The position numbers and the translations under genes were made by a program. 64,000 bases of DNA from an uncultured Pelagibacteraceae bacterium (GTDB lineage: Bacteria > Pseudomonadota > Alphaproteobacteria > Pelagibacterales > Pelagibacteraceae): assembly GCA_902625945.1 (NCBI GenBank), contig CACODG010000002.1, forward strand, positions 62,001 through 126,000, in the 5' to 3' direction. Shown piece by piece: positions 59,766 through 62,552 of the stretch; position 1 is the first letter of the stretch, and each line of letters begins with the position of its first letter. Below the pieces are notes generated by a model. That model did not search any database. It was not told the DNA's origin and saw only the letters and a program-made list of their open reading frames with translations.

Positions 59766-59969
59766 ATGGCAAAAATACAATTAAATGGAAAAAAAGTGAT
59801 TATTAAATCTAACTTTTCGATATCAGACCTTTTGAAGAAGTATAATTTAGATAACAAAAAAATTGCGATAGAGCATAATGGAATTATTATTCAAAGAGCC
59901 AATTATAGAAAAAAATATTTAAAGGAAAATGATAAAGTTGAAATAGTACATTTTATAGGTGGTGGCTAA
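59766..59969 (+). CDS. thiS: Sulfur carrier protein ThiS
   Basis: Ubiquitin-like sulfur carrier for thiazole synthesis. The chain ends in the required di-glycine tail (VHFIGGG), which is adenylated and thiocarboxylated. ATG 59766 (AKIQLNGKK) is chosen; a TTG at 59751 is also in frame. Length 67 aa. Directly coupled to thiG. No TPP riboswitch fits in the 27-nt space upstream. Confidence 0.94.
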
Positions 59970-59970
59970 A

Positions 59971-60744
59971 TTGAAAAAAGATATTTTAAAAGTCGCAGGC
60001 AAATCTCTAAAGTCAAGACTTATAGTCGGGACCGGAAAATATAAAAGCTTTACTGAAACCGCAAAAGCTATTGAAGCTGCTGGAGCTGATATGGTTACTG
60101 TAGCAGTAAGACGGGTAAATATCTTAGATAAAAAAAAACCAATTTTAACTGACTATCTCGATCCAAAAAAAATAATTTTTTTACCTAACACTGCAGGTTG
60201 TTATAACTCTAAAGAAGCACTAAGAACTTTGAGATTAGCTAGAGAAATGGGAGGATGGAAGTTAGTAAAACTCGAAGTATTGGGAGATAAAAAAACTCTT
60301 TATCCAAACATGATCGAAACTATCGAGTCGACCAAAACACTTGTTAAAGAGGGTTTTAAAGTAATGGTATATTGCACAGACGATCCTTTATTAGCAAAAA
60401 AATTAGAAGACAATGGTGCTTCTGCAATTATGCCTCTAGCTTCTCCAATAGGTTCAGGATTAGGATTACAAAATAAAGTTAATATATCGTTAATAATCAA
60501 ACAATCAAAAGTTCCAGTGATAGTAGATGCTGGAATAGGAACAGCCTCTGATGCAACAATCGCTATGGAAATGGGTTGTGACGGTGTATTAATTAATAGC
60601 GCAATCGCGAATGCTAAAAAACCTGTTTTGATGGCAAAGGCTTTTAAAGATGCAGTTATTTCAGGACGAAATTCTTTTTTAGCAGGGAGAATGGAAAAAA
60701 ACTTTTATGGATTACCTAGCACACCTTTTAAAGGAAAAATCTAA
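59971..60744 (+). CDS. thiG: Thiazole synthase
   Basis: Forms the thiazole phosphate of thiamine from DXP, the ThiS thiocarboxylate and an imine. The barrel motifs are [52 protein letters not shown] and [32 protein letters not shown] place the start at TTG 59971, just after the thiS stop with GGTGG upstream; GTG 59962 or 59959, overlapping thiS, is possible. About 257 aa. It converges on the RNase gene with 4 nt overlap. Confidence 0.94.
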
Positions 60745-62552
60745 TTTTTCTTTTTTCTTCTTACCCATAAAGTTCTTAATTTTTTTTTAGTTTTTAATTT
60801 TTTAACATCTTTTTTTAATTTTTTAGTCTCTTTTTTAGGTTTTTTTTCCTCATATGATCTTTTATTTGATTCAATAAAGTTTATATTTTCAACTATATTT
60901 AAAATTTTTTTTGATTTATTAATCAATTCAATTTTATACTCAGGAATTATCAATTTTTTATCAGGTATTAACTCAATTTTAAAAGAGTATTTTTTTTGAA
61001 AGTATTTTAGCTCTTCTAAAAGATTTTTTTCAATAAAAAGGATAACTTTTTCAGGTACATAAGCCTTAATCACCTTAACCTTTTCTGTGAAAGCCAAATG
61101 ATGAATTTTTTTTAAAACCTTTTGTGAAAAAGAACCCAAAGAAAGTTGCGTTTCCCATTTTATTGAGCCTCCTCTTAATCTTTGCCTTGTCATTTCTAAC
61201 AAGCCAAAATTACTAATTTTACCTATTTGAATCCTCGCTCTATCTTTTCTAATACTTTCTCTCATTTTTTTTTCTACAGTGCGTCTATTATAAAAATTCA
61301 TCATATCTATAAAATCAATTACAATTAAACCAGATAAATCTCTTAACTTTATCTGACGCGCAATCTCCTCGGCAGCTTCTAAGTTAGTGTTTAATGCAGT
61401 TTTTTCTATATTAGTTTGCTTTGTTGATTGACCTGAATTTATATCTATTGATACCAGTGCCTCTGTTGGATTAATGACTAAATATCCTCCAGATCTTAAT
61501 TTTACTGTTGGTTCAAAAATATTGTTTAATTCTTTCTCAATATTTGCATCATGAAATAGAGGAATTTTACCACGATACTTTTTAATATTTTTTACATTTT
61601 TGGGCATTAGTTCTTTCATAAATCTTTTTGCCTTTTGATAAGCTTCATTTCCTTCAATATAAATATTTTTGGTTTCATTATCGTAAGTATCTCTCAAAGT
61701 TCTTTTAATAATATCTCCTTCCTCATAAACCAAAGAAGGAGCATTTGATTTCAAAGCATTATCTCTTATTTCATCCCAGGTTCCCAAAGTGTTATTGAAA
61801 TCTTTTTCAATTTCATTTCTTGTTTTATTTGCACCTGCAGTTCTAACGATTACTCCCATGCTACTTGGAATATCTATTTCATTTAAAATTTTCCTTATTT
61901 TCAAACGGTCAGAGGAATTAAAAATTTTTCTGGATATTCCTCCTCCTTTAGGGGTGTTTGGCATTAAAACCATGTATTTACCTGCTAAAGATATAAAGGT
62001 CGTTAAAGCAGCACCTTTTTGTCCTCTCTCTTCTTTTATCACTTGAATTAAAATTACTTGTCCTGGCTTTATAACTTCTTGTATTTTGTAACGTTTGATA
62101 CCGAATGAAGATTTTACCTCTTCTCTAAATTCTTTTTTGTCAACTTCGTTAGTTTTAACATCTTGATTTTGATTTTTTTCACTTTCCCCATTTAAGCTAG
62201 AACCAGATTCCTCTTGAGAATTTTCTTGCGGAATTTCTAAATTTTTATTTTTAAGATCTTCTCTAATTTTTTCTTCTGCAATTTTTATTTTCTCTTTATC
62301 TTCAGATGGTATTTGATAGTAATCGGACTGAATATCATTAAAAGCTAAAAAACCATGTTTTTCCCTTCCAAAATTTACGAACGCGGCTTGTAGGGAAGGC
62401 TCAACACGACTTATTGTTCCTAGATAAATATTGTTTTTAAAATTTAAATTATTTTTATCTTCAAATTCGTATTCTTCAATTGAGTTATCTGATTTAAGAA
62501 CAATACGTGTTTCATTTGGATGCGAAGCATCAATATATAAATTTTTTTCCAT
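60741..62552 (-). CDS. rne: Ribonuclease E/G family endoribonuclease
   Basis: An mRNA decay and rRNA processing nuclease. Present are the N-terminal strand and S1-like domain ([22 protein letters not shown]...HGFLAF), interrupted by an acidic low-complexity insert (about 75-145), then [27 protein letters not shown], and the catalytic Asp segments [11 protein letters not shown] and LIVIDFIDM. The zinc-link CPxC motif expected after [12 protein letters not shown] is missing. The C-tail is a short lysine-rich stretch rather than a long degradosome scaffold. Its 603 aa lie between RNase G (about 490) and RNase E (about 900-1000). Confidence 0.92.

Follow-up and report, generated by a model that had tools for sequence, protein, structure and literature searches.

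The zinc-link has been described as a conserved organiser of RNase E, required in E. coli for the tetramer and for full activity. The stretch of DNA analysed here, 64,000 nucleotides from an uncultured Pelagibacteraceae bacterium (the window; contig CACODG010000002.1, positions 62,001 to 126,000), carries an RNase E/G gene that a first-pass annotation had read as lacking the cysteines of this link. The question that this locus raises is whether an RNase E can function without zinc and, if so, what holds it together.

The RNase E gene and its zinc-link

The 603-residue product is an alphaproteobacterial-type RNase E. It matches the Pfam RNase_E_G profile (PF10150) with an E-value of 3.4e-98 and 328.8 bits against a cut-off of 25.5, and TIGR00757 with 470.8 bits against a cut-off of 325.95; neither profile requires the zinc-link, and the CPxCxGxG pattern of the link was not encountered in the protein. 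By sequence, the nearest PDB entries are chains of E. coli RNase E, of which 2bx2 was aligned, and Caulobacter crescentus RNase E (4oxp) aligns to residues 1–280 with an E-value of 6.2e-74. The assembly to which the window belongs, 71% complete, yielded this RNase E/G copy and no other. A convergent ORF at 59959–60744, thiazole synthase-like by inspection, shares 4 bases with the end of the RNase E gene (window 60741–60744).

Table 1. Features of the RNase E/G gene and its product, in window coordinates
Feature	Position	Strand	Basis
RNase E/G gene, 603 aa, cysteine-free	60741..62552	-	ATG-start ORF, profile matches
Variable S1-domain insert, residues 86-150	62103..62297	-	alignment A3; site of Caulobacter S1 insert
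5'-sensor R237-T238	61839..61844	-	invariant in 40 aligned proteins; 2bx2 alignment, VRTAG stretch
Catalytic Asp D370	61443..61445	-	invariant in 40 aligned proteins; 2bx2 alignment
Catalytic Asp D413	61314..61316	-	invariant in 40 aligned proteins; 2bx2 alignment
Zinc-link place, residues 449-475	61128..61208	-	alignments A3, A4
W466, Pelagibacterales-invariant Trp	61155..61157	-	142/142 loci
L470, Pelagibacterales-invariant Leu	61143..61145	-	142/142 loci
Small domain (RNase_E_G_Thio), residues 474-542	60927..61133	-	PF20833 E 1.2e-6; model helices and strands
T594-L595-W596, candidate PNPase-binding motif	60765..60773	-	invariant in 46 aligned sequences

The reading of the first-pass annotation holds for the zinc-link cysteines. 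The stretch is as it was described and the protein contains no cysteine at all, which leaves no room for a shifted CxxC elsewhere, and none was found when we looked for one. Eleven residues are missing after T468 (alignment A3) or Q469 (alignment A4), and each of the 10 Pelagibacterales rows in A3 shows the identical 11-column gap, which corresponds to the CPxCxGxGxV hairpin. No CxxC occurs anywhere in the protein at any of 142 Pelagibacterales loci (127 distinct proteins, eight coded genera); the loss is neither a sequencing error nor confined to one genome. These loci comprise 80 kept out of 175 relatives (79 Pelagibacteraceae and one assigned to Pelagibacterales only, 74–87% identical to the window protein) and 62 from 92 coded matched genomes, the latter spanning families f1 and f2 and eight genera. 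All 49 genomes of the order sample with a completeness of at least 90% gave a match to the gene itself, although in G192 the match consists only of two pieces lying at or close to contig ends; among the less complete genomes, G215 and G218 show stops or broken frames in it.

Outside the order, we read 135 RNase E/G proteins of other alphaproteobacteria, drawn from 130 genomes and 119 coded families, and in 133 of them CxxC stands precisely 22 positions after the F of the FGL anchor (+22). The class sample behind this control included 131 of 139 matched non-Pelagibacterales genomes, leaving out G055, G080, G117, G172, G174, G177, G180 and G182. One of the two exceptions, L265 (genome G168), is an RNase G-like second copy that is also without CxxC (EPIYGDGRARV), and the other, L253, belongs to the order discussed below. 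In the phylum sample CxxC was found in 30 of 30 loci, the best-scoring of 157 matched genomes, at +19 or +22 in 28 of them; most of these loci have frames near 500 residues and carry little information on RNase E outside the class. The anchor pattern missed L248, which has CKHC, and the two remaining phylum loci, L289 and L293, which have CPRC and CPTC. Loss of the zinc-link in Pelagibacterales RNase E is thus order-wide, a clean variant of a known enzyme.

A second lineage without the cysteine pair was met in coded order f23, whose genomes measure 0.6–1.1 Mb. Six genomes were searched, and the cysteine pair is gone in five of the five genes found (L253 and L423–L426). Like SAR11 (the Pelagibacterales), this order combines small genomes with a zinc-link that has no CxxC; unlike SAR11, it retains the length of the hairpin, the pair being substituted in place (for example DGIISGIRCTIRS), and has no tryptophan at +17. 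The Pelagibacterales fall on one side of a branch with SH-aLRT values of 74 in an 83-row tree and 88 in a 57-row tree. The free 57-row tree places f23 beside L249, which has CxxC, and a constraint joining four of the five f23 proteins to the Pelagibacterales was not rejected (p-AU 0.929, 57-row tree). The trees are compatible both with one loss and with two.

The CxxC is described as well conserved across alphaproteobacteria in passages of PMC12510024, and to this conservation the Pelagibacterales are a clear exception. According to the same passages, the Caulobacter CxxC is oxidised by and sensitive to copper and helps condensates form, and a Caulobacter RNase E fragment comprising residues 451–898 bound no zinc in vitro; the role of the CxxC may therefore already be different in alphaproteobacteria. 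In Caulobacter RNase E the pair reads CEHC, and a long, charged domain at the C-terminus serves as the scaffold of BR-bodies (passages of PMC12510024); the SAR11 protein has neither. In the accessible parts of the literature on the RNase E zinc-link and on SAR11, with subscription papers out of scope, we found no description of the missing link.

Catalytic core and the residues beside the gap

The catalytic aspartates, which the annotation had said remain, are indeed kept: D370 and D413, which we take to be E. coli D303 and D346, show no variation in our alignment, and neither do R237 and T238 of the 5'-sensor, presumably E. coli R169 and T170. The window protein resembles E. coli RNase E in that the catalytic and sensor stretches align and the DNase I and small domains match our model. 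It differs in the absence of the CPRC zinc-link, where it is 11 residues shorter, in its S1 insert, and in the short tail that replaces the noncatalytic half (residues 530–1061). With the Caulobacter enzyme it shares a matching stretch over residues 1–280 as well as the S1 insert, which in Caulobacter is placed at 97–145 by passages of PMC4245959.

An AlphaFold2 model of residues 335–548 (me77129c47f3e), whose input alignment included four more distant rows from viral_contigs, reached a pLDDT of 83.1; a full-length model built from 46 close sequences had a mean pLDDT of 39.2 and was set aside. In the model of residues 335–548, the DNase I domain superimposes on that of V. cholerae with a Z-score of 19.7 and an rmsd of 1.0 Å over 109 residues. 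The modelled C-terminal half compares with E. coli RNase E at Z 20.2 over 199 residues with an rmsd of 15.0 Å across the two domains, at which value their relative orientation is not fixed. The small domain is modelled with good confidence, and its profile, PF20833, was recognised in 24 of 31 Pelagibacterales proteins and not in the other seven.

W466 and L470, both invariant across the order, stand at +17 and +21 from the F of FGL, and the residue at +17 in 128 other alphaproteobacterial proteins is mostly T, A, S or G. When the aligned core of 29 Pelagibacterales proteins (all 29 with W466 and L470) was compared with that of the 128 others, only nine positions showed a fixed difference, defined as one residue in at least 90% of Pelagibacterales and at most 10% of the other proteins. 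Five of these are conservative (G45, S48, K192, K243 and K402, being G/A, S/T and three K/R exchanges). The non-conservative ones are W466, L470 and K478, which adjoin the gap, and K329, which lies elsewhere. This gathering of non-conservative changes beside the gap suggests a structural replacement for the hairpin. The manner in which W466 might pack is a guess, since the linker at 461–468, which holds W466 and surrounds the old zinc-link, has a pLDDT below 50 in the model.

The tail, its C-terminal motif and PNPase

The absence of a long scaffold tail had also been claimed and is borne out, as the distance from the FGLL anchor to the C-terminus is 155 residues in the window protein versus a median of 355.5 in the 128 other alphaproteobacterial proteins, a lower bound given that the stretches used reach 1500 bases past the match and some tails or C-termini are cut. 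Eight of the 128 have a tail as short as the longest in Pelagibacterales. The tail counts leave out the incomplete L106, L152 and L154 and, as does the scan for fixed differences, L253, L255 and second copies. Past residue 545 the window protein has 58 residues, 25 of them Lys or Arg and 6 Asp or Glu, and these are mostly variable. The short tail of this group is already in print: Rickettsiales and Pelagibacterales RNase E proteins are called remarkably short (at most 720 residues) in passages of PMC5436854, a paper whose main text contains neither the word "zinc" nor the word "cysteine".

A changed assembly of the RNA-decay complex had been proposed too, and this is only half right: the tail is short, but a conserved T-L-W occupies the place of a PNPase-binding GWW. 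In Caulobacter the GWW binds PNPase and is strikingly conserved in alphaproteobacteria, according to passages of PMC3376730; we found G[WF]W within the last 30 residues read in 87 of 135 other alphaproteobacterial proteins. The sister Pelagibacterales family f2 has this motif in common with Caulobacter, ending in GWW plus two residues in 27 of 27 proteins, and it is at the GWW position of f2 that the T-L-W stands. Across the 142 Pelagibacterales proteins, 27 have GWW, 102 have LW[VIFT] with three basic residues after it (23 of 23 in genus g1 and 79 of 80 named loci) and 13 have neither. Among the 13, the proteins of L106 and L154 are truncated where their contigs stop; the 11 others, in g139, g5, g140 and g141, are not, so that by sequence the Trp motif is lost in other genera of the same family.

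Of 78 genomes searched in the order, 71 have a PNPase over the cut-off; none was found in the incomplete assembly of the window itself. RNase Y exceeded its cut-off in none of 58 genomes, with 16 weak partial matches. A minimal RNase E-PNPase complex may persist by way of the C-terminal T-L-W motif. We aligned PNPase sequences from 30 other alphaproteobacteria, 19 members of the sister family, 3 members of the same genus and 27 of the motif-lost group (L309–L337 less L317, L328 and L333, plus L372). Five columns are conserved in the other alphaproteobacteria and the sister family and changed in the motif-lost group. In one of these five columns, reference position 259, the Ala has given way to Arg or Lys in 23 of the 27 motif-lost sequences and to Gly or Ser in 3 of 3 from the same genus. 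The docking pocket of PNPase may have been lost where RNase E lost its Trp motif, but in this comparison by sequence position 259 is no more than a hint, as the same-genus group differs there too.

Assembly and function of a zinc-free RNase E

The first-pass annotation had assigned the zinc-link to the dimer of dimers. This is imprecise: in passages of PMC3997798, PMC2631609 and PMC4435900, the shared zinc bridges the protomers within the principal dimer, and the small domains link dimer to dimer. Passages of PMC2631609 describe the interfaces that DNase I domains and small domains form in the E. coli enzyme as hydrophobic and self-complementary. Because the active-site and 5'-sensor residues, the DNase I fold and the small domain remain, the most likely reading of sequence and model is an RNase E that is active without zinc and whose subunits are held together by protein contacts. 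The SAR11 enzyme likely functions without zinc, and a changed quaternary structure is plausible.

Specifically, we propose that SAR11 RNase E is catalytically complete and zinc-free, is paired by protein interfaces and recruits PNPase via its C-terminal Trp motif, and we put the odds of this slightly better than even (roughly 0.55). The protomers would pair by way of their small domains and of the hydrophobic contact between DNase I domains; the shortened strand, which carries W466 and L470, would pack on or close to the former zinc site, and the enzyme would be zinc-free and probably a more labile dimer or tetramer. In the genus of the window, PNPase recruited by the Trp motif would give a minimal two-enzyme degradosome with no long scaffold. 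A more specific form of this proposal, which we advance tentatively and do not expect to hold in full, is that the zinc knuckle was excised in a single 11-residue step, with W466 and L470 forming a hydrophobic lock across the dimer and PNPase sitting on the C-terminal Trp motif of a metal-free RNase E. If true, metal-free SAR11 RNase E and PNPase would be among the smallest RNase E-PNPase degradosomes. A very abundant ocean order lives with an RNase E that is without the zinc-link and in which a single Trp and a single Leu are fixed at this position. Nature has in this way set up an experiment on whether quaternary structure and 5'-end sensing depend on a shared zinc, and the protein is small enough to suit structure work.

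Several observations weaken our main reading. The TLW is not GWW, PF20833 goes unrecognised in 7 of 31 proteins, G215 and G218 show broken gene frames, RNase J could carry part of the load, and the short RNase E of Wolbachia failed to rescue E. coli lacking rne. The strongest rival, which we regard as unlikely, is that tetramers are no longer needed and the zinc-link was lost with them, leaving a loose dimer or monomer in which W466 caps the strand within one protomer. An E. coli RNase E fragment without the tetramer-forming region reportedly retains core activity (Caruthers, 2006), and the unaltered catalytic core in the alignment, the short tail and the predicted flexibility of the old zinc-link stretch in the model are all consistent with such a protein; a small domain still recognised in 24 of 31 proteins and the invariance of W466 and L470 speak against it.

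An active, zinc-independent enzyme that pairs through protein contacts also has to be weighed against a division of labour, in which SAR11 RNase E would be RNase G-like, acting in processing, where the full activity that depends on the tetramer would be dispensable, and RNase J would start most mRNA decay. Of 58 genomes examined in the order, 55 have a match to RNase J (35 over the cut-off), and most Pelagibacterales genomes searched lack a further RNase E/G gene above the cut-off. The Wolbachia (Rickettsiales) enzyme is like that of SAR11 a short alphaproteobacterial type with S1 insert; in passages of PMC5436854 it has 591 residues and is said to be without GWW, and in E. coli it rescued loss of RNase G and not of RNase E, whereas Wolbachia RNase J rescued both. 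The genus of the window keeps the Trp motif and the sister family keeps GWW, which runs counter to this division, and we judge the division improbable.

Less probable still is that a zinc-poor surface ocean selected against a dispensable structural zinc in an abundant enzyme. The loss does span an oceanic order, and a second order of small genomes is also without the cysteine pair, but the Caulobacter fragment 451–898 bound no zinc in vitro (passages of PMC12510024), in which case the saving may be nil, and L31 is the one other zinc protein drawn upon. Ribosomal protein L31 is cysteine-free in 27 of 30 Pelagibacterales loci (L389–L418), the other three being unreadable by pattern, a count that covers Pelagibacterales only, without an alphaproteobacterial control, and is uninformative alone. 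Escape from redox or copper sensitivity, by which an enzyme without CxxC and long charged tail would form no condensates, we consider very improbable: the tail is short and 82 of the 142 Pelagibacterales proteins have no cysteine, but AT-rich base composition could also reduce cysteine content, and the other 60 have cysteines elsewhere (one in 38, two in 19, three in 2 and five in 1), so that cysteine as such is not excluded from these proteins.
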